From: a virus | Reading direction: 5' to 3' (one strand) | Length of the DNA: 25,966 bases | Virus record (IMG/VR): IMGVR_UViG_3300020162_001361 | Span: 1-25,966 of that record | In this document: in pieces, positions 5,303-25,468 of the stretch | Layout of the letters: every line of letters starts with the position of its first letter | How positions within the stretch are numbered: the stretch's first letter is position 1 | Position numbers and translations under genes: made by a program | Notes under the pieces: generated by a model | Database searches by the model: none | What the model was told of the DNA's origin: nothing | The model's input: only the letters and a program-made list of their open reading frames with translations

Positions 5303-6887
5303 GGAGACGCCCTCCTTCCACGTTCCCGACCCCAGATGTAAGGAGGTAGCGGAGGCAGTCGATGGGGTCCTTGCTGGCTCCCTTCTGTCCGTCGCTTCCG
5401 GTCCACTCTTTAAGTGCCCAGATGGTATTGGTACAGCACTCGGAGACGTAGAGCTTCGGTGCGTTGAGGTGGTCGATTTTGTGTTCTTCATTGTAAAATA
5501 GTGCGTCGTTAATGAGGCCGACTCCCTCCTCGATGTTCTCACCAGGGCACGCTCGGAAACTCATCCCCGCGTCCTCGAGCTCCTCCAAGAGCGTCGTGCT
5601 TTGCTCCCGCGTTCCGGCGACCGTCGTATTCGCATACCTCGAGTCTATCCACCGCTCAAAGACCTCGACCCCGTCGAGCTTCTCGACCCGCTCGATCTCG
5701 CCCTTGTACGCGAGCAACCCGAAACCGAAACTCTTCTGCCCGTCTCCGGCCTCGCCGTCCGCCTTCTTCCCGCTCGATACCGCCCACGGCCCCGCATGCC
5801 CGACCCCCTCGATGTAGGTATCGCACTGCGGCCACTCCCGATACACCCACGCCCGCTCGCCGGCATCGATGCGGATCCACAACATAAACCAGTTTTTCCC
5901 GCCCGCCGGATCGCAGAAAAGGTAGTTCGTCCCGTCTTTCGGGATTTGGTCCGCCTGGACGACATGCACCGCCTCGCGGAAGCGCGGAAAACGGGTCGCG
6001 GTCGCTTTTATGGGGACGCCGTAAGCGCGGCAGAGGATTTTTTCCCGCGGTTGCTTCGCCAGCTCGGTCTTCATCCGGCCGTAGCCTGCCCACGGGTTGT
6101 TTTTTGTCTGGAAATAAATGACGCCCGCATTCCGCGTCGTGCATTCCTGCACCACCGGCACCATCTCAAAGCCCTTCCCGTTTTTTTTAGGCAAAAGCTC
6201 CGCCTCGCTCTCCTCAATCGTCTTCGCTCCCTGAAGATAGTTTTTGACCGTGGGTGAGTAGCCCTCAATGGGCGTAAACGTCACCAGCAGGATGCCATTT
6301 CGGTCGAGAAGACGGAAACGGATCGTCTCGAGCCAGTCCAACGGCACCAACTCGTCGCACCAGGCTAAATCGATCTCCCCGCCCTCGATGGTGGTGATGT
6401 CTTGCGCGTAATTCCGAAACCACACCTGCGATTTGTTCGGAAGGACCGCCGTATTTTCCGAAAATCCGTTCTTTTGAGTGTAACTGATGTTCGTGACCTT
6501 GTTCCGCTTCGCGACCCTCAGCTCCCGAGGCATGAAATTCCACACAATCGGCTGCTGCATCGAGATCGAGTTGTCGTTCGTCGTCTGAAAGCACCACACA
6601 CGGCTCGCCGGCTTCTCCAGCAGGGTGCGGACAACCATCTTCCCCGCCCAAGTGCTCTTCCCCGAGCGGTTCCCGCCCAGCACCAAGAGGTCGCGGTAGC
6701 GTTTGGCGATCTTCTCCGCCTTCGTCCAGTGCTCCGGCTCGTACCCGTACCGCACCGGATCCTCCTTCTCGCTCGAAATCCGCTTCTCCCGCTCGACCAA
6801 CAACCTCTTAGCCCCCTCAGGGTCCGCTAAAAAATGCTCCGGCGGAATAAACGGCAACAACGGGTGCGGTGATTGAGTAAAGGTCAC
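5277..6887 (-). CDS. terL: Terminase large subunit
   Basis: A 536-aa packaging motor and nuclease. The ATPase domain has Walker A GGNRSGKST (71-79), Walker B with catalytic acid IDLAWCDE (172-179) and the coupling motif LVTFTP (201-206). The nuclease domain begins around YLFCDPAGGKNW (first acidic residue D326) and ends with a DPIDCLRYLL helix that supplies a late acidic residue, as in RNase H-fold terminases. It should bind the portal and the small subunit, pump DNA and cut concatemers. Its start overlaps the HNH stop (ATGA), and its end overlaps the small HTH gene. Length and motif order are normal for the family. I cannot tell the cos or pac strategy from the sequence, although an adjacent HNH gene is often linked to cohesive-end phages. 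Confidence 0.96.
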   Translation of the reverse strand: MTFTQSPHPLLPFIPPEHFLADPEGAKRLLVEREKRISSEKEDPVRYGYEPEHWTKAEKIAKRYRDLLVLGGNRSGKSTWAGKMVVRTLLEKPASRVWCFQTTNDNSISMQQPIVWNFMPRELRVAKRNKVTNISYTQKNGFSENTAVLPNKSQVWFRNYAQDITTIEGGEIDLAWCDELVPLDWLETIRFRLLDRNGILLVTFTPIEGYSPTVKNYLQGAKTIEESEAELLPKKNGKGFEMVPVVQECTTRNAGVIYFQTKNNPWAGYGRMKTELAKQPREKILCRAYGVPIKATATRFPRFREAVHVVQADQIPKDGTNYLFCDPAGGKNWFMLWIRIDAGERAWVYREWPQCDTYIEGVGHAGPWAVSSGKKADGEAGDGQKSFGFGLLAYKGEIERVEKLDGVEVFERWIDSRYANTTVAGTREQSTTLLEELEDAGMSFRACPGENIEEGVGLINDALFYNEEHKIDHLNAPKLYVSECCTNTIWALKEWTGSDGQKGASKDPIDCLRYLLTSGVGNVEGGRLHVTGGGSY

Positions 6888-7363
6888 TGCGCCTCCTTTA
6901 TTAGTTCTCTAAAATCGTTAGCCCACTCATCCCATGCCTTTCCTTTTTTTCCTTCAGAGAGTTTAAATGCAGCGCCCGCTGCATCGCACACAACAGAACC
7001 GCCATAAAGCGTTTTGCAGTAATAAATATCTGGACAATCATCACTGGAGCGTTTCTCAATTCTTTCAAGAAGCAGCACCGGATATTCCCAAGTCTCGGAT
7101 TCTTCAAAAACTACCCAAGGGACCACAATCCCAATAGAATCCTCCCAAAAATGCCTTTTTGTGTGGCAGTGATTGCAATATGTTATCAAATCCTCGTTCG
7201 GATATTCCCACGGCCTTTTTCCTTTTGCGTAGTATGTGTGGTGAACGTGCAGCTCTGAATTTTTGTCGCCACATAAGCAACACTTCCATCCGTCACGCTC
7301 AAAGATTTGAAGACGCTTGCGTTGCCACCTTGGATTTCTTAATTGATCGCTATACTTAATCAT
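6884..7363 (-). CDS. HNH endonuclease
   Basis: A 159-aa HNH nuclease. The zinc-ribbon pairs are CCLC (C28 and C31) and CNHC (C63 and C66), with the catalytic HVHH at 39-42 and a H-H-T-Y-Y...PWEYPNEDL stretch typical of this subfamily. The N-terminus (YSDQLRNPRWQRKRLQIFER) also matches the usual opening of these proteins. The C-terminal part (about 75-159) is unassigned. The start at 7363 is fixed by an ATGA overlap with the upstream gene; the frame continues to 7393, but that part overlaps the neighbour. HNH proteins beside the large terminase often assist genome-end cleavage, and a homing role is the alternative. G+C is visibly lower than in flanking genes, which suggests later acquisition. 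Confidence 0.87.
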   Translation of the reverse strand: MIKYSDQLRNPRWQRKRLQIFERDGWKCCLCGDKNSELHVHHTYYAKGKRPWEYPNEDLITYCNHCHTKRHFWEDSIGIVVPWVVFEESETWEYPVLLLERIEKRSSDDCPDIYYCKTLYGGSVVCDAAGAAFKLSEGKKGKAWDEWANDFRELIKEAQ

Positions 7364-7527
7364 TTTTTTGTAGCCCTCTGGAGGGACCTCCAATCATCAA
7401 CCGCTTTGCATGCCTTCGCGTAGGCGTCCATTGCTCGCTTCATCGCATCAATCGCCTCGTCTCGCTCGCGTTCTAATTGGCGGGATTTGACTGCATAATC
7501 TGTCTCTGGTTTAGTTTGTTCGTTCAT
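7360..7527 (-). CDS. Short coiled-coil protein with QLERERDEA motif
   Basis: A 55-aa protein with a sharply heptad-like centre: QLERERDEAIDAMKRAMDAY, followed by a lysine-rich end (SLQRATKK). It carries an ETD at residues 8-10, like the T-P-E-T-D openings of its neighbours. Both ends are coupled: its ATG lies 17 nt inside the upstream gene and its TGA overlaps the HNH start. The region coding for the motif is a near-copy of sequence in the upstream gene, so it looks like a duplicated fragment of that family. Function is unknown; small T-P-x-T-D/LERERD proteins are frequent in phage genomes. Confidence 0.7.
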   Translation of the reverse strand: MNEQTKPETDYAVKSRQLERERDEAIDAMKRAMDAYAKACKAVDDWRSLQRATKK

Positions 7528-9017: not shown

Positions 9018-9265
9018 GGTTTGGCTCTCCAGTTGGATGCTTCGACTACGAGGCGTCGGGCCTCTTCGAGGGAGTGGAAGTAGATTTCTTGTTCGCCGAT
9101 GTCGCGGGTGTATTCTGGGGGATTGATGTGAGCGATGGCCCAGCGGAGGGATTCGGCGAGATCGGTAGCGAGTCGGCAGGTGTGCCGGATGCCTGGGTGG
9201 TCTTGCCATTCTTTGTTGCAGGACGGGCAGCCGATGTTGGGGTCGATGGAGTAGGGTTTTGTCAT
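9014..9265 (-). CDS. Small protein with a possible zinc site, unknown function
   Basis: An 83-aa protein with ATGA overlaps at both ends, which is strong support that it is translated. The N-terminal part has CPSC (residues 13-16), then H at 23, H at 28 and C at 30 in NKEWQDHPGIRHTCR, which could bind one zinc ion. The remainder is helical (LATDLAESLRWAIAHINPPE, then a SLEEARRLVVEASNW helix). No family is recognised. It sits between the TGT-like gene and the putative small terminase. Confidence 0.65.
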   Translation of the reverse strand: MTKPYSIDPNIGCPSCNKEWQDHPGIRHTCRLATDLAESLRWAIAHINPPEYTRDIGEQEIYFHSLEEARRLVVEASNWRAKP

Positions 9266-9897
9266 ATGAACTGAAGTTGAGGTCTAGAATCTCCGTGAGT
9301 GCTTTGAGCGAGATATCGGTTTAACTCTAGCAACCTGTCATCGCCTCCACGCACCCATCCGGTTCCATCGCAAGATTCGGCTCCGGCCTCATGGGCCATC
9401 CAAAGCAAACGCTCGGAGTTTACTCTGCCGACATGCACTCTAGGAAAATTGTCAGTCCATGATCGAAGGTGACGCCATTTCCAATCTGTTGAACCTCCTA
9501 CAAAAACAACATCTGCTTCGTTAGGGACATCATTTGGCGTCATGCCGTCTTGCACAGCAAATGCAAATCCAACTCCGTGCAGCAGGTTCTTTAGTTGTGG
9601 CATCCACTCATTCCAACGAATTATTGTTGCCTCTTTATCTGTAACAACGTCTGGAACAACAACCCATGACGGCTTATGTGCGGAATTTGATTTTTCAATC
9701 AAATTAAGGAACGCATCAGCATCCCATTCTCGGTCATTAGCCCATGCACCATAAGCCCCATTGTCCAAGGCATATGGCATCCATGATGGCGGCTTTCTCC
9801 ACCCGTCTGGAGATATTAGCCAGCCTATACGATTTTCGTATTTGCCTGCTAGATATCCTATTTCGATACCAGAGTTATTTGAGGGCATAACAATCAT
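9262..9897 (-). CDS. Miniature TGT/DpdA-like guanine-exchange protein
   Basis: A 211-aa protein. Five short motifs occur in the order of the tRNA-guanine transglycosylase barrel: YALDNGAYG (D45, compare TGT LTDSGGF), VVPDVV (D83, compare the FDE segment), FAVQDG (Q116, compare VQGG), VFVGGS (134-135, compare the GGL loop) and ESCDGTGWVR (D177, compare the nucleophile loop DCVLPTR). A HVGRVNSERL segment precedes the last motif. The zinc-binding C-x-C-x2-C of classical TGT is absent, and the protein is about half the usual length. Phage relatives (DpdA) insert 7-deazaguanines into phage DNA to escape restriction; a tRNA target or another reaction cannot be excluded. No preQ0 synthesis gene is visible here. 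It is coupled by ATGA to the helicase and the next gene. Base composition is more AT-rich than in neighbours. Confidence 0.55.
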   Translation of the reverse strand: MIVMPSNNSGIEIGYLAGKYENRIGWLISPDGWRKPPSWMPYALDNGAYGAWANDREWDADAFLNLIEKSNSAHKPSWVVVPDVVTDKEATIIRWNEWMPQLKNLLHGVGFAFAVQDGMTPNDVPNEADVVFVGGSTDWKWRHLRSWTDNFPRVHVGRVNSERLLWMAHEAGAESCDGTGWVRGGDDRLLELNRYLAQSTHGDSRPQLQFI

Positions 9898-13137: not shown

Positions 13138-14184
13138 CTAGTTTTTCAGCTTGGGTTGCTTGGGTTTCACCTGGCGGAGTTGTTTGCTTGGGGATCCGGT
13201 GCGGATGTGGGATGGGAGAGGTTCACGGCCGAGCGCGGCCGCCCACTCTCGGTAGGACTTGCCAGACATCTTGCCGCCCATGGCGAGGATGATGCTCTCG
13301 ACGGGGGCATTTGTTTCTCTGGCAACAAACAAGATCGCCTCAACGTCGAAAAATTCGCGCCCATTCACCTCGGTGAGCTTCCAGCCGTCTACCTCGCCGC
13401 CCTCATCGAGTAATCTCCTGAGCTCATCGAGGGCCGGCTCGGCCACCGCCTTCTCGACGGCCTTCCACTGGGACGCGAACTGAGCCAGAGTTTCCGGCGT
13501 AGCCATCACCCGCTCGAGGATCTCGGGCACCGAGGTCTTAGGCACATCGATGACGGCGAGCCCCTCCTCGATGGGCTGGACCACGGCAGGGCATGTGGCA
13601 TAATTCGCGCACCAGGTGCAGTATTCCGACGCTTGGGGTTGGGAATTCGGGTCCAGTGCAGCGTCCTTTATCGTGTCGATAGTTTTCTGCGCCTGTTCCA
13701 GCGTCCAGTTGTAGCTCAGCACCTTCTGCTGGTCGCAGTAGATAACGTGGGTCGCCCAGACCTGCTCAAACGTGCGCACCATACAAGACAAGGCGTAGGC
13801 CGCCATCTGCGGAAAGTAATTGCGCATCTGGCCCGTCTTGAGATCCCCTACCCAACCGGTTCGGTCGCAGAGGATATCGGCCGTGCCGACGTGAGGTAGC
13901 CCAGGCACAGGCATGGCTAGGTACTCCTCGCGGGCCTCCAGCGTGCCGTTGCACTTGTACCTCTCCACAAGGTCGATAGCCCACTGCACATTGGCTCCGT
14001 CCTCGGGAGGTAGCGCCTCGAGCTTCGAGCGGTCGCCCATCACGGCGAAACGGAATGCCTCGTCCATACGGGTGCCCCGCTCCGCAGCCGGACCCGCAGG
14101 TCCAGGCTTCGGCCGGTACTTAGGGCACTCCCATAGCTTCGGGAGCAGGGACGGACGGATGTCTTTTAATGTCAATGGGTTCAT
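13138..14184 (-). CDS. RecB/Cas4-like PD-(D/E)XK nuclease with iron-sulfur cluster (DUF2800-like)
   Basis: A 348-aa nuclease. The catalytic core is HVGTADILCD (D103) followed by WVGDLKTGQ (D114 and K116), then a PQMAAYALS helix (Q126), as in RecB-family exonucleases; the earlier AERGTRMDEAF segment takes the place of the usual G-x-x-x-H motif. C20 together with C189, C192 and C198 (YCTWCANYATC) forms a Cas4/AddB-like set expected to hold a [4Fe-4S] cluster. The C-terminal third is helical and ends in a basic tail. It would resect DNA ends for the Sak4/SSB recombination system next to it. Its start overlaps the upstream stop (ATGA). Confidence 0.82.
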   Translation of the reverse strand: MNPLTLKDIRPSLLPKLWECPKYRPKPGPAGPAAERGTRMDEAFRFAVMGDRSKLEALPPEDGANVQWAIDLVERYKCNGTLEAREEYLAMPVPGLPHVGTADILCDRTGWVGDLKTGQMRNYFPQMAAYALSCMVRTFEQVWATHVIYCDQQKVLSYNWTLEQAQKTIDTIKDAALDPNSQPQASEYCTWCANYATCPAVVQPIEEGLAVIDVPKTSVPEILERVMATPETLAQFASQWKAVEKAVAEPALDELRRLLDEGGEVDGWKLTEVNGREFFDVEAILFVARETNAPVESIILAMGGKMSGKSYREWAAALGREPLPSHIRTGSPSKQLRQVKPKQPKLKN

Positions 14185-14438
14185 GTTTTTAAGTTTTTTG
14201 GTGTCTGTATCATTTGCTTCATCGCTTGCTTCATGTAGGCCACGCCGTAGGGCATCTTTTTGCGTTTAAAGAAGGCATTGCAGGCGGAATTGATCTCGGC
14301 GCACTCGGCACTAGTCAGGTAGTCGATTCCCGTCCTCGCATCGTCGTAGCTAAGACACGTCCAGTTCATGTTGGTCGGCGTAGAATCATGACCCCGTCGG
14401 AAGACAGGCCTGTCGCGAGCGAGATCGACGTCCTTCAT
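14181..14438 (-). CDS. Hypothetical 85-aa protein between ATPase and nuclease
   Basis: ATGA overlaps tie this gene to the Sak4-like gene upstream and to the nuclease gene downstream, so it is very probably translated. The sequence begins KDVDLARDRPVFRRGHDS, has a central NWTCLSYDDARTGIDYLTSA, and ends in a basic helix with repeated Met/Lys (YMKQAMKQMIQTPKNLKT). I recognise no family. The position suggests an accessory factor of the recombination module. The frame continues upstream to 14540, but that part is a shadow of the ATPase gene. Confidence 0.65.
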   Translation of the reverse strand: MKDVDLARDRPVFRRGHDSTPTNMNWTCLSYDDARTGIDYLTSAECAEINSACNAFFKRKKMPYGVAYMKQAMKQMIQTPKNLKT

Positions 14439-15382
14439 GCCCGCTCCACGCAGGAAGCCTTCCACGCATCCACCGCATCGAGGAACTTTGACGGCGTCGC
14501 ATGCACTTGGGCGATGTAGTCCAGCGGAGCATCGGTCCACTGCTGGTCATCTCCGATCTTGCCTCGGTAGCGCAGGAAGGCCGTGATCTCGTCGCCCTTG
14601 TCCTTGAATTTTGCCTTGAGGATATCCAGCGGGGCGATCTGCTGCACCGGAACCTTGGTCGGTACGCTCGAGACAAAGAGCGACTCGATGCTCGCCCACT
14701 CCATCGGGAGCTCATCGGCCAGAGCCGAGCGGGTCTTCGCGTCGTAGGCCGCCGAGTGCGAGGTCAAGATGATGCGCTCCTTGCCGCCTCGTCCCTTCGC
14801 CTTGCCCGATTCGCTCTCCACCACACGGGTCTTGAAGTTGAGGAAGAAAAGATGGTCCACCCATTCTTTGATGAGAGGCGACGCCTGCTTCGTTAGCTTC
14901 AACTCGTATCTGTCGTAGGGGAGCACTTGGTCGGGCGGCTCCTGACGCTTCACCTGGGCGTGGCCGATCAGCACCACATGGATCCCAGCCTCGATGAGAA
15001 GATCGAGCGACGCTAGGAATCGAGCCATCCGCTCCGCCGCCATGACAAATCCCTTCCCGTACGGGATCTCCTCGAGCGATTTGATCTTCTTCTCCTCCTT
15101 CAGAGCTTCGTGGTTCAAGCGCTCGGCCCAGTCAATAGAGTCCAGCACCACCGTCTTAAAGTCGTGCTTCTCCGTCGCCAGCTCCCGCACCGCTTCATTC
15201 AGCGCAGCCCAAGTCGGAGTCGCCACCCGAGGCACATCGAGATGCGAAGTGCCGTTCTCGACATCGAGGAAGAGAGGTGCCGGCGCCTTGGCGGCCAGCG
15301 TCGTTTTGCCGACGCTCTCCACCCCGTAAAAGCAGACCCGCTGGGCCCGCTGGATTTTTCCAGTTATGATTTGTAGTTTCAT
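14435..15382 (-). CDS. Sak4-like recombination ATPase (AAA_24)
   Basis: A 315-aa RecA-fold ATPase. Walker A is GVESVGKTT (20-28), followed by the PLFLDVENGTSHLDV segment, Walker B VVLDSID (78-84) and a GIHVVLIGHAQVKR sensor strand; the WVDHLFFLNFKTRVV stretch also fits the AAA_24 phage nucleotide-binding family. Members such as Sak4 bind single-stranded DNA and promote annealing with help from the phage SSB. The C-terminal 70 residues form a separate helical part. It heads the recombination block of ATPase, orphan, nuclease, SSB and resolvase. The start has no Shine-Dalgarno; the leader is AAAAAACACAAAAC. Confidence 0.82.
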   Translation of the reverse strand: MKLQIITGKIQRAQRVCFYGVESVGKTTLAAKAPAPLFLDVENGTSHLDVPRVATPTWAALNEAVRELATEKHDFKTVVLDSIDWAERLNHEALKEEKKIKSLEEIPYGKGFVMAAERMARFLASLDLLIEAGIHVVLIGHAQVKRQEPPDQVLPYDRYELKLTKQASPLIKEWVDHLFFLNFKTRVVESESGKAKGRGGKERIILTSHSAAYDAKTRSALADELPMEWASIESLFVSSVPTKVPVQQIAPLDILKAKFKDKGDEITAFLRYRGKIGDDQQWTDAPLDYIAQVHATPSKFLDAVDAWKASCVERA

Positions 15383-16090: not shown

Positions 16091-16171
16091 TTTCTATTGA
16101 CACGCTGATAAATACTATCTCTGCGGACGAAAATATTTTTCGGTTTCTGAAAAGAAAATTTGCTTTTTGGA

Positions 16172-16189
16172 ATACTCGGTATTACTGGT
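16172..16189 (+). promoter_or_regulatory. Operator-like site O2
   Basis: ATACTCGGTATTACTGGT, with the palindrome AATAC-TCG-GTATT counting the preceding A. It ends six bases before the ATG of the rightward RHH gene. It matches O1, about 160 bp away, in the same orientation, so occupancy could block expression of either RHH gene or allow a DNA loop. Confidence 0.55.
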
Positions 16190-16195
16190 GGTCTT

Positions 16196-16468
16196 ATGAA
16201 AGGCAACGAAAATGTCTCCAAGTTCACCATATCGCTAGAAAAAGATCTCTTCGATTGGGTCGAAGCGCAGGTCATTGCGATCAACAAAAAAGACCGCAGA
16301 GCCAAGAGCAGCCGGAGCGCCGTCATCGCGCATGCTGTTCAAGCCATGAAAGAATCAGAAGAGGGAAAAGCCAAGCCGGTTGTTGGTGTCGTGATCCGAC
16401 CAGCCTCCGAGAGTTCCGTTTCTGGGCGCTCAATTCCTACGAGGAAGAGCTCCCGCAAAACTGGGTAG
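16196..16468 (+). CDS. Ribbon-helix-helix regulator, rightward (candidate repressor)
   Basis: The only convincing plus-strand gene in the window. The 90-aa product has an RHH-like N-terminus: strand VSKFTISLEKDL, helix A FDWVEAQVIAI, a basic loop NKKDRRAKSS, helix B RSAVIAHAVQAMKE, then a polar, Ser/Arg-rich tail. It is transcribed away from the integrated early operon and towards the integrase gene, with which it converges. Single leftward-opposed regulators of this kind are usually the lysogeny repressor; that role is inferred. I chose the ATG at 16196, because the upstream frame to 16160 runs through the operator. The 103-bp gap to the integrase stop shows no clear terminator. Confidence 0.7.
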   Translation: MKGNENVSKFTISLEKDLFDWVEAQVIAINKKDRRAKSSRSAVIAHAVQAMKESEEGKAKPVVGVVIRPASESSVSGRSIPTRKSSRKTG

Positions 16469-16571: not shown

Positions 16572-17579
16572 TCACAGCGCCCACCACTTCTCTGCATCGC
16601 GGCGGGATACAAGATTTGCGTATGTGGCGTAAAGTAAGTCCGGCGAAGTTCCCATCTCAAAGGCCGTTTTCGTGGCGTCCTTAAAATGGGCCAGATGGTA
16701 AGAAGCAAACGAATGTCGCAGGCAATTCGTAGGCCACCCCAGAGAGACATCCACGCCAATAACCATGCACGCCTCCTTCGCCGTCCGTTCCCAGCCCTTC
16801 TTCCACCACCCATCAACAAGCGGCCCCACACGCCTCGGCATGTGTCGCGCAAAAGGGTCTTGAATGGTAGCCGAGCGAGGACGCGCCGCCTCGCCCTGCT
16901 TTGCATCCTCGCGTCGGATCACGATCTCCTTGTACTCCCAATCAATGGCCGAGTTGTCCACCGCAAAGATCTCTCGCGTTCGGAGTCCAGCAAAGGCGCC
17001 AGCAACCAACCAAGACTTGAACCACACCGGCCACTCATGGGCCAACAGCGCCTTCATTTGATCCAGAGTCAGGATCGGCAACCTCGCGCCCTTATCTCGT
17101 TTCGGCGGCGCATCGTTGAACGGATTAGCCGACACAGCCTCACGACCAATCGGTGAGTTAAAGAAATCGCGGCAGACCGCAAACACATTCCACCTCCCGC
17201 GAGTCGTCAGCGGCAAAGAATCGATCCAGGCACGCATGTGTGCCGGCTTTAGGTCTGCCGGACGCTTGCGCCCCCACTTCTGGCACAGCAAATTTATGCC
17301 CCACTTAATTTGGCGCAGCGACACCGGCTCCACCTCGAGAGATTTCTTAGCGAGAAACTGAGCCGCAAAGAAAGCCACGCTTTCCCCCGCCTTCGTCGTG
17401 CTCGGCAAATCACCCGTCAGAGTGAGCGAATAAATGAGATCCGCATGCGCCCGATTCGCCTCTTCCGCTGTTTTAAAAAAATATCTTTTACGAATTCCCT
17501 TATTCAGCGAGCTGGGAACATCGATTTTCCATCGCGCTTTCACCCTATCAAATTCCGGCAATAGCTTTTGTAAGTCCAT
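16572..17579 (-). CDS. int: Tyrosine recombinase, phage integrase
   Basis: A 335-aa integrase. The N-terminal arm-binding part (about 1-60) includes RKRYFFKTAEEANRAHADLI. The core-binding domain (about 65-150) is followed by the catalytic domain with box I AGAFAGLRTREIF (R200), box II TNCLRHSFASYHL (R288) and the nucleophile in LLYATYANLV (Y320, nine residues after T311). Two usual histidines are replaced: H-x-x-R is N285-x-x-R288 and the G-H before the nucleophile is G-T (311). The L-R-H-S-F-A-S-Y-H and A-E-K-W-W-A-L end pattern is one I associate with Verrucomicrobiota integrases. The att region lies directly upstream. The start lacks a Shine-Dalgarno. It should integrate the phage at a tRNA 3' end. 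Confidence 0.94.
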   Translation of the reverse strand: MDLQKLLPEFDRVKARWKIDVPSSLNKGIRKRYFFKTAEEANRAHADLIYSLTLTGDLPSTTKAGESVAFFAAQFLAKKSLEVEPVSLRQIKWGINLLCQKWGRKRPADLKPAHMRAWIDSLPLTTRGRWNVFAVCRDFFNSPIGREAVSANPFNDAPPKRDKGARLPILTLDQMKALLAHEWPVWFKSWLVAGAFAGLRTREIFAVDNSAIDWEYKEIVIRREDAKQGEAARPRSATIQDPFARHMPRRVGPLVDGWWKKGWERTAKEACMVIGVDVSLGWPTNCLRHSFASYHLAHFKDATKTAFEMGTSPDLLYATYANLVSRRDAEKWWAL

Positions 17580-17935: not shown

Positions 17936-18133
17936 CTATTCCTTGCCTTTGGACGTCGAGGCGTCTTGTCGCGGGGAGATTTTGGCGTTGCGAATTCCCA
18001 GGGCGACGAACGCATCATTCTCGCCCAGCTCCTTGCCGATGCTCCAGGCACCAGGGCGCGAAAACTTAGCGTTGAACAGGTCAATGTTTTCCTGCTGCTT
18101 GCGCTGCTTTTCTATGAGTTCTTGTTGAGTCAT
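17936..18133 (-). CDS. Small helical protein at the end of the virion operon
   Basis: A 65-aa protein. It begins with a strongly charged helix (TQQELIEKQRKQQENIDLFN), then has AKFSRPGAWSIGKELGENDA and a basic, polar end. No family is recognised. Its ATG overlaps the stop of the giant gene (ATGA) and has GGAGGT six bases upstream, so it is clearly set up for translation. The terminator follows. It may be a small virion-associated or chaperone-like partner of the giant protein, by position only. Confidence 0.65.
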   Translation of the reverse strand: MTQQELIEKQRKQQENIDLFNAKFSRPGAWSIGKELGENDAFVALGIRNAKISPRQDASTSKGKE

Positions 18134-21100
18134 TGTGCTACCTCCGTCTGTGACATATATCCCATAAGGTCGGCCGCGTCAATCTCGTCAAACGCCCTTT
18201 GTGGGTCATAACGGTCGGCAATCTCGGCTCGGCGTTTACGAATACCATCTTTTGCAGCTTTAGAAAATGCCGCCTCTTGGTCTCGCAGAGTTTTGGCTGT
18301 TTCGCGGGCTTGCTTGATGTATCCAGAGACGACTTTTTTGTCTTCCGCTGGCAACGCTTCAAATTTTGTTTTCTTGCCGCTGACATAATCGGCAAATGCC
18401 GACTGCATTTTTTTAGTTCCTGGGATTTCCATCGACTGCCCAGCGCGAGCCAGCGCTTGGTCAGCAGACATGCTTTCGCTTTCAGTTATTGCTTTGGCAA
18501 GTGCGTCCAACTCCTCTCGGCCAATAAACATCGTCTCGTTTTTCTTTAAGCGAGATTTGAGATTGGCCTCAACATTTGCCGTTTGCATTACCGATGTTGG
18601 CGCGTTCGCTGCAATGCCGCTGACGGCTTTATCGTAAAACAATTTTTGCACGGCGTCTCGGAATGGGCTGGGTGAAACAGGGTCCGACGAACGGTAAGAC
18701 GGAACGACCATTTTTTCTGATGTGGATACCGATATCCCATGTTTTGCCATCACTGCTTGAATAGCGGATTCGCTGTTAAGAACCGCTTGCATAAAGTCAC
18801 CATCATAGAACTGGCCGCCGATAAACACACCTTTGTCTGAAGGTGTGTAGCCGGTGAAAATTCGGTTGCCGTTGCTGTCTCGGATTTTTGCCAAGTCAGT
18901 AACAAACGCCGTTCTTTGCGCGGTTGTCATTTGACCTGTTTCAAATGAAACAACAGGCTGCTTTTCTACGGCTGGGTCATACAATTCCTTGGCGCTTGGC
19001 CGGCGGAAAATGTTGCCACCTTGCTGCTCGACCGCTTCGTTGACGACTTGCATCAGATATTTGGTGTCGCCCCTGTCGCCACGGACGATGGCTGTGATCT
19101 GGGGTGTTTCGGTGTAGACGCCGTCGTCCATCGTAAACCCGCCAAGATCGGTTTTTACCGAATCAACTTGCAGCTTGATGCCGTGCTGTGTTGCCAAGCC
19201 GGTCAATTCATCGGCCAGATTATTGGCAAAGTGTGCTGTGAGCCTTGCGAGCGACTGCTTGTCTCCGGCTTGCTCCATTGTCTGAAGTGCCGAGTTGATC
19301 GCTGTAGCGGTGCGCCCTGTGCCTACCGTCGCTACCTCGAACGGCAGTTCTTGCCTTGCCATTGCAGTATAAGCTCTCTCCATCGCGTCGAGCACTTGCG
19401 CTCCACGGACATTACGTTGCCCTCCTGTGCCAGCGATTGCTTGCAGCTCCATCTTGAGCGGTTGGATGCTGTCGCTGAAAAGAGACAGGTCGTTGTTGGC
19501 AAGAATTGGGTTATCTTTCTTTTCAATGGCCCACAGGATTTCTTGCGCATTACGCGCCTTCAATTTTTCTTTGCCAAACATGGATGCTAGACCACGGCGA
19601 TTTAGTTCGTCGGCCAACAACCCATCGATAGCTTGCTGCGCATCGTAAAGGCGCCCGCCACCTCCAGGAGACAATCCAGCATCGGTGCCTGCGGTGTAAG
19701 TCGTAAAATCTGCACCGGCAAACGGGGCCTCGCTATCTAAGCGGGCTTTCCATGTTTCTGCGGTCCAATCAAAGTTACCTTCAATGCCAAGCGTTCTGGC
19801 TTGCTGATAACGAAGTTCTGCTGGCGAATTGATAGCGAGTTCTTTTGCAACTTTGGCCCAGCGTGGAGATCCGATTGTGTCCTTGGCTGCTTTGCTTTTT
19901 TGCGTCCACTCAAATGGCTGTTTCAAATCTGACCGTTTTTTAGGATCAAGAATAAACCCAGGCACCGCAACACGCTTGGCTGCCATGTCCCACATATCGA
20001 TGGTTGCTTTACCATCCAAGATTCGCTCGGTCTCTGCGAGTTGCTGCGGCGTTAGCTTGGACGCATTGGGATCAACAAGTTTGAGTGATTTTGCAGCGCG
20101 TGTTTGAAGCATTTCTGCCGATGCAGTGTCGCCGTTTTTGCGAGCAGATTCGATCATCTCCGAAAGGCCATTGATGTAAAATGTTCGGACCTTGTCTTGG
20201 ACGCCTTTGATATCCAAATCAAAGTGTTTTCCGGCATTAAAATCCGCCTGACTTTGACGCGTTGCGCGTTGAATCTCTCCAAATCCCATTTTGTATCCGG
20301 CTGTAAATTCCCCAAGCGACGCTGCCGCAGCGCCAGCCGATTTAGTGCTGTTAACAGGAACATTTGTGCGAACGCTACCAAGTGCTAAGTACCGAAGCAT
20401 TTCGTCAGCGCGATTGAAACGCTCGATTCCGGTGATTTGCGGATTGATGATTTCGGCCAGAGTTACGGCTTCGGTTCCCATGTCGGAATAAAATCGAGCG
20501 CTCTTCTGCGCAAACTCAGTTTCCCGCAGTCCGGTGTCGTGAACACGATCTGCCAGCAACTTCACCAACTCACGCACTTCAGTGAAGTTTTTTGGCATGC
20601 CAGGAGCATTGCCAATGAGTCCATATCGAGGCGGTAGGACTACACTTCCTTTAACTGGATTTTGTGGATAGAGCGCCGTGTCGCGGTCTTTGGCAAGTAG
20701 GCTTTGATCGTATACAGAGTGAATCATCCGCGCAGATTCTTCAATCGGGTGGATATCCGGCATGGCTTGGCCTTGGGGATTGTATAAGGCGTCTTCTGTG
20801 GTTTTGGGTAAAGATATGAGCCGGTCTCGGGAGTAGCCGGAGAGCTCGTTCATGTCAGTGATTGGATGTAATGACAGCTCGTCACCCATTTCGTGAGCTC
20901 CCCACATGCGATCTCCGTCGGACCATCGGCGGGCGACATCGAGTGCGCTGGATGGTTGTTCGCCGTGTTTTCTTAAAAAGGAACTCAACTGCCGATCTGT
21001 CATTTGTTCGATTGGCTTTAGAGGTTTTGCATCCGGCATGGCTTGGCCGGTTGGCAGGTCTCTTGACAAGTCCGGCAGCGGTGTAGGGATTTCGGGGAGG

Positions 21101-24100
21101 AGGTTGTTGTTGGCTTTGTCGTAGTCGAAGTGGAAGCCTTGGCGTCCGGTGCCGACGGCGGCGTCCACTCGGTCGAGGCGGAATTGCTTGATCGCGCTGC
21201 TGGGGCCGGCGATTTTGCCGCTGAATGGGTTTGCGGCTTTGTTGATGTTGGTGCCAATGCCGATGAGGGAGTTGATGGCGTCGCGGCGTTGCTCACCGAT
21301 TTTGTTGGAGCCTGGGAGGTCGTTGCGGTGATTGTCCATCCACTGCTTGAGGTCGGCCTCGATGAGTTTGATGTCGTTGTTGTAGAGACGACCGATGTTC
21401 GGTTCGCCGGCGTTGATGGCTTTGATGGCACGGTTGCGGAATTGGGTAAGGTCTAGGACGGATGCGAGGAGATTGTTTGGTCCGCTGAGTTCCCAGCCCC
21501 AGGGGATAATTTCGCGTGTGATGGCCTCGAGGTTGCCGAGCTTTTTGATCTGGAATGCGCCGGTGTCTCCGCTGCCGATGGAGTGGTAACGGACCTGCAT
21601 GCTTTCGCCGGTAGCGGCAGCAGTTTCAAATTGGCGAGCGAAGCCGCGTTGGTGTTGCGCGAATCCGTTGAGGAAATCGAACTGCTGCGGGAGTATGCGG
21701 CCTCGCACGGTGACGCGGCCGTCGGCTGTCTTCTTCGGGCCGAGATTTGGGTCGGTGGCTGGAATGAGCTTTGAGCCGACGAGCGTTTTGACCTGTTGCT
21801 GGCGCTTGATTGTTTCGGCGGTGATGTCGCGCTGTTCGCGGAAGACGGCTTGTCCGGTGGTTGGATCCATGCGGGCGAATTCATTAGCCATGACGCCGTT
21901 CCCATAGTCGTGGAACGTGACCTGGGGATTGTTTGCGAGGTCGCTTGCTCGTCCTGCTGGGGCCACACGGACGCCTCGGGCTTGGGTCTGCTCTGGGTGG
22001 TTGATCCAGTTGCGGTAGTTGTTGAGGTATTGGTCTAGCTGTTTTTTGAGGACAGGATCGGTCGCCAGGATGGGGTTCGCTTTAAAGAGGGGGTCCGGCT
22101 GGCCGGTGACAGGGTCGATGCGGACGCCCGAGATCGAGAGAGCGTTAGCCTGGGCACCGAGGAAGTTCTCCATGCTCCCGAGCCATGATCCGTCTGCTGG
22201 AAGGTGGCGGCGGATGCCGGCAAAGTCCATCGATTGGCTGGCTTGTCGGAAGTCCTCTGCAAAGATTTCGTCCCGAGCCCAGTCGAGTGGATCCATGTCG
22301 CCTCGGAGGAGTCCAGATTGGCCGAGCTCGTCCATCTTGGCGCTTATGGATGCAGGAGTGACAGGGAAGTTTTGCCCAGGGAATTTGGCGGCGTTTTCGT
22401 TTTGGATCATTGCGGTCGCGTATTCGCGGCCACGGGCTTCGACTCCGGCTTGGGTGTAGCGGCGGGTGGTGAAGGAGCGAATCGTATCGGCTTGGGCGCT
22501 GCCGAGGGCTCCGCTCTTGAGCAGGGCGTGCCCGAGTTCGTGCGGCACGATGCCGTCGCGTTTGGCGTCGAGGTTGACAAAGACACGGGCCTTTTCTCCT
22601 GGAGGCGCTTGGATGAAAAGTCCAGCGGCGCCATTTTGAAATTGAACTTTTGCGTTTTTGATGAAGTCGCTGTCTCCCGCTCGTTCTATGCCATCCAGCG
22701 GCACGAAATCCACCTTGTCGCGGAAGAATCCCTGCATGGCGGCGAGGTCGCCGAGTTGTTGCTTGGAGTAGGTCTGAATTGTCTTGGTGACATCGCCGCC
22801 GGCGAGCTCGACATCCATGAGCATGCGGGCGGTGTCAAAGGCGCGGGACTCGGCGCGGCGTTGCTCGAGGCCGGTGAATCTGCCAGCGGCTCCGCCTAAG
22901 GCGCCAAAACCAACGCCCATGCCGAACATATTTGCTGCGGCTTTATCCTCGTCGGCATTGAGTGCGAGGGCAACGAACGGGGCGTTGGCGACGGCGCCCT
23001 TTACCGCTCCGGTGGCTACGGCAGACGTTCCACGCACCCCTTGGACGATGGCGGGTGATGCGAGTGCGTCGGCGATGGCGCGGGTCTGCTTGCCGAGTCG
23101 TGGGTCGGCAGCGAGACGAGCTGGGGTGGACTCGATGGGGCGAAATCTGGTGGGGTTCTCGAGAGCTTCGCGTACCAAGGACAGCTCTGGAAAAGCCTCG
23201 AGCTTGGTGGCGACGGAAGCTTGAGCTATGTCGTCAAATCCCTCGCCGGCATCCGAGGCAACGCGCAGGATGGTGGCCGTGGGGCCAGCGATTTTCTGGA
23301 CCGTGCGTAGGACACCGAGTCCCGCTTTGTAGCCTAGGTAAGCGCCTCCGATGAACTTTGCCGCGTCCTGTGCTTGGGCAACTCCTGGTATATCGCTATC
23401 CAAGCCGAAGAATCCTGCACCGATGCCGCCAGCGGCAGACCACTTGGCCATCTTGATCTGGTTCTCTGGAGAAATCTTTGTGCCTTTTTGGATGATCTCT
23501 TGGAATTTTGCGGCACCAGTTTCCATGCCGGCGATGCCTTTGGCTGCGGCACGGTCAAGCACGCGGGCTGCTCTGGCACCACCCGCTTTAGTGAGACGGG
23601 AGAGGCCAAGGGTTTTTGCGCCTGCGCTAAGAGGGACGCCCATTGTAGCGATGTTGGTCGGCTCAAGTAGGCCGCCAGCCAGCTCCGAGGTGGCCTGCAT
23701 GGGTTGCTCGGTTTGGTTGCGACCTGTGACTAGTCGGGTGACGAACTCGGTGGGTGCAGTGGTAGATGCGACCCATTCTTCGAGTTCTTTTTGCCGTGAG
23801 CGCTCCATGACAAATCTGTCAAACTCTTCGTCCTTGAGGTCTTCTTCGGTGACGGCGCGAATGGATCGGCCTTGCCCTGCGGCGGCTTGTTGCTGGCCAG
23901 CGAGCACCTCCGCATCCGAGCGACCTGCGCCGGATTGACCGAATACAAACTCGCCCGTTTGCTCATCACGGCCGATAGGCGTGGGGGCATTCGTCTGGCG
24001 GATCCAGCGGGTCACAGCGTTGGTGTTGCGCCACGATTTCTTGGCCGTGGCTTTCATTGTCGCAGGGGAGCGGGCGAGAAATTCGCCTGGGTCATCCGAG

Positions 24101-24606
24101 ATTTCGTGGATCGTATCGCCGATTGTTTGCAAGAATCCTTGAGCTCCTGTCGCCGCGTCTTCAAGCAGCCCAGGTATTTTGCCTTCGGATTTCAGTCGAG
24201 CCTTGAGTTGCTTGGCCTCGAAGTATTCGTCGCGTGTCGGGATGTAGGTCGGGTCGTCGTAAACGGATGCGACTATTTTTTGATCGATTTCGTCGGGCGT
24301 AAATTTTGGGACGCTTTGATCGTAAAGATCAAGCTCTTCTGGAGTATAAGCTCGGCTGGGATCCAGTGATTTGATAGGCCCCATAGCGGGCCCGCGAGAC
24401 GGCTCGGGAATGGAAAAAGAAGTCCCGTCCCCGACGGCCAACTCGGGTGAGCCTGTTGCTTCAGGCGCTGTTGGTGCGCTTGCTACGGGGGCAGCAGAGG
24501 CGGTGCGGGAAATTTCTGGATTCTCGACCGGCAGCTCGGCGGCGGCCATTGCATCGAGTTCCTCGACGGTGTATTTCCTATCGTGCGACAGAGTATGTTC
24601 GGCCAT
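18130..24606 (-). CDS. Giant virion/ejection protein with zincin-like HELGH motif (polyvalent-type)
   Basis: A 2158-aa protein. The N-terminus is Pro/Ala-rich with repeated Y-T-(V/P)-E-E-L-D motifs (12-18 and 86-93). Glycine-rich hydrophobic stretches (GGIGAGFFGL, GGAYLGYKAGLG, MFGMGVGFGALGGAAG) fit a membrane-penetrating ejection protein. HELGH at 689-693 in GIVPHELGHALLKSG, with an EIFAEDF segment further on, is a zinc-metallopeptidase signature. A linker GQAMPD occurs at 1187-1192 and 1279-1284. The C-terminal half contains segments such as WDMAAKRVAVPGFI and WAIEKKDNP and a coiled-coil end. Large phage polyvalent proteins with zincin domains are thought to enter the cell with the DNA. The gene overlaps the upstream gene by 29 nt. 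The exact family is not proven. Confidence 0.6.
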   Translation of the reverse strand: MAEHTLSHDRKYTVEELDAMAAAELPVENPEISRTASAAPVASAPTAPEATGSPELAVGDGTSFSIPEPSRGPAMGPIKSLDPSRAYTPEELDLYDQSVPKFTPDEIDQKIVASVYDDPTYIPTRDEYFEAKQLKARLKSEGKIPGLLEDAATGAQGFLQTIGDTIHEISDDPGEFLARSPATMKATAKKSWRNTNAVTRWIRQTNAPTPIGRDEQTGEFVFGQSGAGRSDAEVLAGQQQAAAGQGRSIRAVTEEDLKDEEFDRFVMERSRQKELEEWVASTTAPTEFVTRLVTGRNQTEQPMQATSELAGGLLEPTNIATMGVPLSAGAKTLGLSRLTKAGGARAARVLDRAAAKGIAGMETGAAKFQEIIQKGTKISPENQIKMAKWSAAGGIGAGFFGLDSDIPGVAQAQDAAKFIGGAYLGYKAGLGVLRTVQKIAGPTATILRVASDAGEGFDDIAQASVATKLEAFPELSLVREALENPTRFRPIESTPARLAADPRLGKQTRAIADALASPAIVQGVRGTSAVATGAVKGAVANAPFVALALNADEDKAAANMFGMGVGFGALGGAAGRFTGLEQRRAESRAFDTARMLMDVELAGGDVTKTIQTYSKQQLGDLAAMQGFFRDKVDFVPLDGIERAGDSDFIKNAKVQFQNGAAGLFIQAPPGEKARVFVNLDAKRDGIVPHELGHALLKSGALGSAQADTIRSFTTRRYTQAGVEARGREYATAMIQNENAAKFPGQNFPVTPASISAKMDELGQSGLLRGDMDPLDWARDEIFAEDFRQASQSMDFAGIRRHLPADGSWLGSMENFLGAQANALSISGVRIDPVTGQPDPLFKANPILATDPVLKKQLDQYLNNYRNWINHPEQTQARGVRVAPAGRASDLANNPQVTFHDYGNGVMANEFARMDPTTGQAVFREQRDITAETIKRQQQVKTLVGSKLIPATDPNLGPKKTADGRVTVRGRILPQQFDFLNGFAQHQRGFARQFETAAATGESMQVRYHSIGSGDTGAFQIKKLGNLEAITREIIPWGWELSGPNNLLASVLDLTQFRNRAIKAINAGEPNIGRLYNNDIKLIEADLKQWMDNHRNDLPGSNKIGEQRRDAINSLIGIGTNINKAANPFSGKIAGPSSAIKQFRLDRVDAAVGTGRQGFHFDYDKANNNLLPEIPTPLPDLSRDLPTGQAMPDAKPLKPIEQMTDRQLSSFLRKHGEQPSSALDVARRWSDGDRMWGAHEMGDELSLHPITDMNELSGYSRDRLISLPKTTEDALYNPQGQAMPDIHPIEESARMIHSVYDQSLLAKDRDTALYPQNPVKGSVVLPPRYGLIGNAPGMPKNFTEVRELVKLLADRVHDTGLRETEFAQKSARFYSDMGTEAVTLAEIINPQITGIERFNRADEMLRYLALGSVRTNVPVNSTKSAGAAAASLGEFTAGYKMGFGEIQRATRQSQADFNAGKHFDLDIKGVQDKVRTFYINGLSEMIESARKNGDTASAEMLQTRAAKSLKLVDPNASKLTPQQLAETERILDGKATIDMWDMAAKRVAVPGFILDPKKRSDLKQPFEWTQKSKAAKDTIGSPRWAKVAKELAINSPAELRYQQARTLGIEGNFDWTAETWKARLDSEAPFAGADFTTYTAGTDAGLSPGGGGRLYDAQQAIDGLLADELNRRGLASMFGKEKLKARNAQEILWAIEKKDNPILANNDLSLFSDSIQPLKMELQAIAGTGGQRNVRGAQVLDAMERAYTAMARQELPFEVATVGTGRTATAINSALQTMEQAGDKQSLARLTAHFANNLADELTGLATQHGIKLQVDSVKTDLGGFTMDDGVYTETPQITAIVRGDRGDTKYLMQVVNEAVEQQGGNIFRRPSAKELYDPAVEKQPVVSFETGQMTTAQRTAFVTDLAKIRDSNGNRIFTGYTPSDKGVFIGGQFYDGDFMQAVLNSESAIQAVMAKHGISVSTSEKMVVPSYRSSDPVSPSPFRDAVQKLFYDKAVSGIAANAPTSVMQTANVEANLKSRLKKNETMFIGREELDALAKAITESESMSADQALARAGQSMEIPGTKKMQSAFADYVSGKKTKFEALPAEDKKVVSGYIKQARETAKTLRDQEAAFSKAAKDGIRKRRAEIADRYDPQRAFDEIDAADLMGYMSQTEVAQ
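20755..21048. repeat. 18-bp in-frame direct repeat within the giant gene
   Basis: ATCCGGCATGGCTTGGCC occurs at 20755-20772 and at 21031-21048, 276 bp (92 codons) apart. On the coding strand both give GQAMPD. DNA on the two sides differs in composition: G-rich codon use to the right (N-terminal half of the protein), more AT-rich to the left. Confidence 0.8.
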
Positions 24607-25468
24607 CAGGATTTAGTATTAATTTTTGACCACCAGGATAAATGCGAACAGCTGGTAGCTGGGTTTGTGGGGCTTGTTGGAAAGCGGGGGCGGAGTTTGG
24701 TTGGGCGGCCGGCTGTACTGGCGCTTGGGATGGTGCAGGTTGACCTGCACCTTCGATGCGTGTCTTGGCATCCAGCAGGTAGTCCTTCCAGATCATTTCG
24801 TTCTGGTGGAGACGCGGCGTCATGCTCTTGAGGAATTTCAATTCGTCCTGGGAGACTGGCTTGAGGAATTTGGTGAGCTCTAGCACGTCGTTATTGACGA
24901 GGCGCTCGAGCTCGGCACGCTGCGCTGCCTTGGCATCGTTCCAGCCGCCAGAGTCAATCATCGCCCCTCCAGACCCATCCCACTTGCCCACCAGACCGTC
25001 CATCGATGTATACCCTTTTGCTTTTGGGTTTGTGTATTTTTCGATCTTTCCAAGGACGAGTTGCTTGCGCACATCGATCTCGGCTTGTTCCTTCGCCTTG
25101 GCGATGGTTTCTTGCTCTAGCTTGCCGATATCGAGTTGGGTTTTCCGAGAGGTCAATTGAGCCGCTTGCGATTCCGCTTGAGCTTTCGGCGTGTTTTGCT
25201 CGCGGAGTCTTTTGTCAGTCTCGGTTACGAACATGGCCATCTGCTCGGGGCTCATTTGGAGGTCTGGATTTTCTTTGAGGTGGTAAAGCAGTTCTTGCTG
25301 AGGGCGTGAAAGAGACTCAAAGCCTTCGGTTTGCAAGCGAGCGGTGAGGCCATTGAAATCAAAAGACAACCCCTTGGATTGGCGCTGTGGCGGTGGGGGT
25401 GTCATCTCTGCAACGGGGGTCACGAAATCTGCCATATCCTCTGCGGTGGGATTGGGTTGAGGTGTCAT
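24578..25468 (-). CDS. Virion-associated coiled-coil protein, possible ejection protein
   Basis: A 296-aa protein with a Pro-rich N-terminus (TPPPPQRQSKGLSFDFNGL), a long charged helix around residues 90-140 (SQAAQLTSRKTQLDIGKLEQ, ETIAKAKEQAEIDVRKQL), a helical region with ERLVNNDVLELTKFLKPVSQ and a Gln/Pro/Ala-rich linker before a short end (AVRIYPGGQKLILNPDGRTY). The long coiled coil and Q/P/A linkers are like internal head or ejection proteins of podoviruses. It lies just upstream of the giant gene, so the pair with the preceding Gln/Ala-rich protein looks like a three-protein ejection set. No family is firmly recognised. Confidence 0.62.
   Translation of the reverse strand: MTPQPNPTAEDMADFVTPVAEMTPPPPQRQSKGLSFDFNGLTARLQTEGFESLSRPQQELLYHLKENPDLQMSPEQMAMFVTETDKRLREQNTPKAQAESQAAQLTSRKTQLDIGKLEQETIAKAKEQAEIDVRKQLVLGKIEKYTNPKAKGYTSMDGLVGKWDGSGGAMIDSGGWNDAKAAQRAELERLVNNDVLELTKFLKPVSQDELKFLKSMTPRLHQNEMIWKDYLLDAKTRIEGAGQPAPSQAPVQPAAQPNSAPAFQQAPQTQLPAVRIYPGGQKLILNPDGRTYSVAR

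Follow-up and report, generated by a model that had tools for sequence, protein, structure and literature searches.

Multi-effector proteins are presumed to be delivered by phages, and the mechanism behind the rapid change of their domain sets is a question that we address here for a giant gene in a 25,966-base virus record (the window, to which all unlabelled coordinates refer). The gene, a single open frame on the minus strand (18130–24606; all parts of the giant listed below lie on the same strand), encodes the 2,158-aa protein P0001, denoted W in comparisons with its relatives, whose loci are labelled L001, L002 and so on. The initial annotation had described this 2,158-aa ORF and an HELGH motif at residues 689–693, and both are present, on the minus strand. 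The protein is composed of a fixed core (residues 1–1186) followed by exchangeable cassettes, here an 86-aa cassette and a terminal module. Our analysis suggests that the giant is probably a polyvalent protein of phage that is hypervariable and owes its diversity to recombination at a linker present in repeated copies; its core/tail structure, the positions of the breaks, the repeated exchange and the conserved zincin residues are established at the level of sequence comparison.

The window encodes an SU10-type major capsid protein (PF17236, E = 1.8e-44), a terminase, a DnaB-like helicase, an exonuclease (phrog_69; 13138–14184, minus strand), a Sak4-like single-strand annealing protein (phrog_124; 14435–15382, minus strand) and, downstream of the giant, an integrase (phrog_1; 16572–17579, minus strand), and was therefore assigned to a tailed phage. 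Two further products, encoded at 6884–7393 and 9262–9897, are by eye presumably an HNH-type endonuclease and a protein recalling deazapurine/tRNA-guanine modification enzymes. An upstream ORF overlaps the start of the giant (24578–25468, minus strand), and its homologues in relatives also lie upstream of the gene. The location in a virion operon proposed in the initial annotation gains indirect support from two relatives, in which the giant lies behind tail spike/fibre and structural-type genes, but the two upstream ORFs of the window itself belong to no named family. A PAPS-reductase-like gene lies between the giant and the tail genes at L001:5454–6605 and L009:5576–6649.

The window giant has no Pfam match at E ≤ 1, no PHROG match and no PDB sequence match. 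Searches with the whole giant, the cores of two relatives or the terminal module yielded no relatives among 50,697 phage records, and two scans detected no relative of the giant in genome contigs of 84,980 species. The relatives described below all come from uncultivated contigs, and no isolated relative was found. These relatives were gathered by protein search alone, without the junction DNA motif, yielding 91 proteins that reach the end of the core and, after collapse at 97% core identity, 52 proteins, that of the window included.

The N-terminus of the core has three copies of a short repeat, (F/Y)TxEE(L/I)D, comprising YTVEELD (residues 12–18; 24553–24573), YTPEELD (residues 87–93; 24328–24348) and FTPDEID (residues 102–108; 24283–24303), and possibly acting as a docking motif. 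Two to three copies occur in 18 of the 52 members, with 45 of 50 occurrences inside the first 160 residues. Hydrophobic, Gly-rich stretches follow at residues 390–580 (22867–23439). The glycine-rich hydrophobic segments reported earlier are present, at residues ~390–450 and 529–580, but are only partly Gly-rich and only moderately hydrophobic, the best Kyte–Doolittle mean over 21 residues in the giant being 1.48. A zincin-like domain (residues 582–799; 22210–22863) contains HELGH (22528–22542) and a helix, DWARDEIFAE (residues 775–784; 22255–22284), in which Glu780 or Glu784 is the candidate third zinc ligand.

Conservation and predicted structure both bear on the zincin assignment. Among the 52 non-redundant members, the motif reads HExxH in 47, HExxxH in four (L178, L185, L186 and L187) and a degenerate HEYFE in one. 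Any HExxH arises in 1.2% of 2,000 residue shuffles of the window giant. In an earlier alignment, H689 and E690 were found in 28 of 28 rows and H693 in 26, with Glu in the other two; E780 and E784 were present in 27 of 27 aligned rows, marking a second conserved Glu helix, DWxRDEIxAE. An AlphaFold model of residues 430–1187, of moderate quality (mean pLDDT 67), has a predicted three-stranded sheet and two helices, in the order three strands, HELGH helix (model residues 257–268) and Glu helix (346–361) with the candidate third ligand. Iyer 2017 (PMC5512222) describes the same strand/helix order in polyvalent zincins. Lethal-factor-type zincins in the PDB match residues 582–799 (Z ~6, rmsd ~5, ~160 residues), a similarity that is weak alone; Foldseek of the core model against the PDB returned nothing at E ≤ 0.001, and the core profile against PDB sequences yielded only E = 0.54 and worse. 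Among viral models, the top fold matches (best E = 4.1e-10) include uncultured-phage proteins carrying the names ART-PolyVal-like and large polyvalent protein. At E ≤ 10, none of 15 records matched the MPTase-PolyVal model (PF18818). The conserved HExxH, the Glu helix and the zincin-like predicted fold therefore point to a polyvalent-type zincin, an idea already published (Iyer 2017), and, with the viral polyvalent matches and MPTase-PolyVal unmatched, to a zincin-like domain of a polyvalent-type protein that lies outside the Pfam model. The metallopeptidase signature of the initial annotation is thus borne out as a gluzincin-like, zincin-type domain by the conserved residues, the predicted sheet and helices and the lethal-factor-type matches, and its polyvalent-protein idea gains support from ART-PolyVal cassettes in relatives and from the named viral matches; many unrelated domains, the zincin included, are joined in one phage polypeptide. 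By extension, the putative zincin domain would carry out zinc-dependent proteolysis, and the giant would be delivered into the cell along with the DNA.

The last part of the core, ahead of junction 1, may adopt a WYL-like fold (residues 929–1168; 21103–21822) according to predicted structure alone: a PDB structural match reached Z 9.1 with rmsd 3.2 over 93 residues, and the WYL domain model PF13280 matched 0 of 18 relatives' records at E ≤ 1. Structural matches of this region include BrxR and CapW. Both are WYL regulators linked to phage defence, BrxR to BREX according to PDB titles.

The feature overlooked in the initial annotation is an 18-bp repeat, GGCCAAGCCATGCCGGAT, present in the window gene in two identical in-frame copies, a pattern seen in no shuffle; module exchange at this repeated junction, the main feature of the gene, was likewise absent from that annotation. 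Junction 1 (GQAMPD, residues 1187–1192; 21031–21048) closes the core. It is followed by cassette A (86 aa, residues 1193–1278; 20773–21030), a family 6 module found too in L001, L007 and L115, then by junction 2 (GQAMPD again, residues 1279–1284; 20755–20772) and by the family 3 terminal module (residues 1285–2158; 18133–20754), which is without known fold or function. Across the 52 proteins, [GA]Q[GA]MP[DE] occurs 79 times (GQAMPD 48, AQGMPD 17, GQAMPE 8 and AQAMPD 6), distributed over 40 proteins with one to five copies each, where shuffles expect 0.065 across all 52. GQAMPD is the 6-mer most frequently repeated within one protein (9 of 52), and its DNA pattern lies in the coding frame in 48 of 48 matches in giant genes; by our own estimate, ~12 matches of the pattern outside giants look like chance. 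A first motif census used the DNA pattern itself and was biased, and the statistics cited here come from the protein-found set, except that the Met/ATG and Shine–Dalgarno counts below rest on 92 DNA-pattern contexts. Not every junction has the motif, because 12 of the 52 proteins are without any copy, including L008 and L002, which have the terminal module of the window. Some proteins are tail-less cores that stop near the junction, for example with ...NNNMMPDVAR in L186.

Beyond the core, the tails of the 52 proteins split into 38 module families in 42 architectures, counts that include tails cut by contig ends (for example, L166, L121 and L171), with small cassettes internal and large modules mostly terminal. 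Of 242 ends or starts of BLAST alignments between proteins, 134 lie no more than 6 aa from the motif in each of the two proteins, compared with a mean of 0.4 and a maximum of 4 in 300 draws with positions redrawn within tails, the pairs not being independent; the remaining 108 ends fall off the motif. The same step is visible in DNA. W and L007 agree at 112 of 120 positions left of the motif and 17 of 18 within it, then at 7–11 of 30 per block, and the comparison of W with L005 gives the reverse pattern, with a sharp identity step at the repeat. A motif thus borders a hypervariable C-terminal region, as in CdiA.

On a core tree of 51 rows (without L015), in which 40 of the 48 inner branches have good support, 39 changes of the terminal module are required, against a shuffled mean of 40.8, with 37 of 200 shuffles as low, a result that is inflated because the 97% core collapse removes pairs inheriting the same tail. 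In the pair counts, from which nine loci repeating a contig and tails <60 aa were first dropped, 109 pairs of different contigs have cores at least 95% identical, and of these 75 share none of the tail, 16 part and 18 all; at core identity of at least 99%, tails are the same in 10, partly shared in two and not shared in four. For 105 of 159 pairs of modules from one family, module similarity exceeds core similarity by 15 points or more, and the opposite holds in 13. L152 and L190, from different samples, have cores of 26% identity and a terminal module identical at 524 of 524 positions. Separately, the family 3 terminal module carries single in-frame stops in two relatives (L003:12417–12419 and L006:3894–3896; TAG and TAA, respectively), with the frame open on both sides of each stop codon.

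The modules, by inference, would act on the host. ART-PolyVal matches 7 of 17 tested records, one of them over the cut-off, DUF7178 matches one tail (E = 6.7e-7) and an 'endolysin' PHROG matches another (the record of L068, E = 5.2e-13). A lytic transglycosylase SLT domain (PF01464), considered for module family 4 on the strength of that PHROG, was rejected with 0 of 8 records matching. An ASCH match in the L001 cassette is weak (E = 0.0058, under the cut-off), and PADLOC returned one weak HORMA match among 33 scanned. The terminal module of the window has no match to a known function; against PDB sequences it hit just 9x1x and 9x1w, 92-residue chains, at E = 0.012, and a PDB fold search gave nothing above Z 7.8. 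One common domain for all large terminal modules was also considered, and was dropped after a profile comparison of 14 tail families, in which one partial link, between families 11 and 14, reached a probability of 54.

A small protein unrelated to the giant likewise has differing halves joined at GQAMPD, as seen in 13 of the 16 distinct sequences kept by the filter. L060 has the motif too, and W, L115 and L125, which are without it, were left out by the filter, the copy in the window being encoded at 16151–16465 on the plus strand. This protein is called ribbon-helix-helix-like mainly by eye, Pfam RHH_1 matching one of six under the cut-off (E = 0.0098). In the small gene the peptide is coded mostly GGC CAA GCC ATG CCC GAC. 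A repeat common to unrelated genes of one lineage favours its spread as DNA, selected to stay in frame. In the giants, GAT and CCG each make up 43 of 48 motif codons, against background usage of 0.37 and 0.39, respectively, and the first two motif codons track core clade (GGCCAA 25/31, GGGCAG 21/25); since the copies share ancestry, this codon bias is no proof of a DNA-level role. The small protein lies near the giant at loci including L013, L030, L060, L073, L080, L109, L116, L124, L126, L129, L134, L140 and L142, among others; its N-domain is of three types and its tail of several, with GQAMPD at the joint in most copies. In addition, L075:538–7587 (minus strand), on the contig of L177, encodes a second, different giant of 2,350 aa with HEAGH, in which GQAMPD and similar MPD peptides stand at possible module borders.

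Alternatively, GQAMPD might serve chiefly as a signal in the protein, being cleaved by the resident zincin or by some other protease to free the modules as from a polyprotein. The peptide is indeed kept although its synonymous codons differ by clade (GGC CAA versus GGG CAG) and recur in another spelling in the small gene, it sits at module borders in 40 of the 52 proteins, Iyer 2017 (PMC5512222) proposes processing of polyvalent proteins by the zincin, and in CdiA the VENN junction has to be removed for toxin entry, as described in PMC9424206. However, the motif persists where the zincin is degenerate (L040, with HEFGE, has four copies and L048, with HEYFE, three by the wider pattern), which argues against the cis form of cleavage; the small regulator-like protein has no evident need for release, and the synonymous motif positions vary less than would be expected from codon usage. 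We therefore hold this reading to be rather unlikely as the main role, and a cleavage role in addition to the DNA role to be possible. A still more doubtful proposal, offered as speculation, combines the two: the 18-bp in-frame repeat would be a universal protein-building plug, used in the giant, in the small regulator-like gene and possibly in the second giant, both as a DNA exchange point and as the peptide cut by the resident zincin, which would split the delivered polyprotein into effectors.

In integrons, a gene cassette plus one recombination repeat is the exchange unit, and the tail of the giant resembles this arrangement, its modules being cassette-like with one repeat apiece; with an integrase gene adjoining the giant in the window, the 18-mer might be an att- or attC-like site for integron-style site-specific recombination. 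Unlike integron cassettes, those of the giant are in frame within one ORF and their repeat is without inverted-repeat arms: five versions of the 18-mer share no conserved inverted repeat (longest stem 2–4, shuffled means ~3). Moreover, the motif tolerates base changes, and integrase homologues lie beside just 14 of 51 relatives, counting either strand in the available DNA. Lacking an inverted repeat and a general integrase, site-specific recombination is very unlikely. That the motif ATG is an internal translation start, from which modules are made as separate proteins too, would fit the coding of the motif Met by ATG in 88 of 92 contexts and is nonetheless highly improbable, with a Shine–Dalgarno-like core 5–14 nt upstream in only 4 of 92, with ATA, TTG and GTG replacing the ATG in some variants, and with the complete ORFs of <900 aa at these loci including fragments only, and no intact gene for a module by itself. 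As the relatives are uncultivated contigs throughout and the repeat is short, metagenome assembly could in principle have produced chimeras at the repeat; the recurrence of identical core–tail combinations in different samples (L161/L162, L158/L159, L168/L170, L146/L147/L148 and L176/L177) speaks against this explanation, which we regard as extremely improbable.

We therefore return to recombination at the repeated linker. The giant has a conserved core (hydrophobic segments, zincin-like domain and WYL-like fold), and its variable tail consists of internal cassettes of small size, in part ART-like, plus usually one large terminal module. Core and modules are connected by (G/A)Q(G/A)MPD, encoded by the near-invariant, in-frame 18-bp direct repeat. 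Since every junction would offer equal short, frame-preserving homology, one crossover could swap the tail and two could add or excise a cassette. The route we favour is homologous exchange between copies of the repeat, mediated by functions of the phage, the likeliest enzymes, by inference, being the Sak4-like annealing protein with the exonuclease as its possible partner. Annealing proteins of the Sak4 kind reportedly recombine sequences that are short or divergent and contribute to phage mosaicism (PMC5499656 and PMC8093625). Against this route, Sak4 homologues lie beside only 5 of 51 relatives and exonuclease homologues beside only 3 of 51, counts taken over short flanks.

Much of this setting has precedents. 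Iyer 2017 (PMC5512222) had already described polyvalent proteins together with their zincins and mosaicism, had raised the possibility of processing and had also suggested cassette recombination for a kinase-bearing locus. Their proteins share with the window giant a giant multidomain phage architecture, a zincin hub domain including an HEXXXH variant, ART-PolyVal and other effector-type domains and extensive mosaicism; in contrast, the window family has variable tails on one fixed core, a zincin outside MPTase-PolyVal and a repeated junction peptide, of which the accessible text of that paper contains none. Phage N4 virion RNA polymerase and P1 DdrB, as covered there, are likewise giant phage proteins with a zincin domain, but the window giant has no family match to either. 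In the CdiA/CDI toxins, according to PMC9424206, a conserved short peptide (VENN) borders a hypervariable C-terminal region swapped by recombination, and by analogy the window junction may act like that border, the likeness extending to the border only: the window family is a phage gene whose protein can have internal cassettes and as many as five copies of the junction, and no secretion apparatus is known for its giant. In the literature outside subscription papers, GQAMPD occurs in no paper, and work on conserved-linker domain shuffling, giant ejection proteins and polyvalent cassette recombination yielded no description of such a junction; what appears new relative to print is a junction that is marked and repeated, together with several in-frame cassettes that can be swapped. 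The family combines dozens of tails with a core that is fixed and a junction that is marked, which makes exchange countable and testable, and, because the junction delimits modules objectively, it provides a list of uncharacterised candidate anti-host domains.
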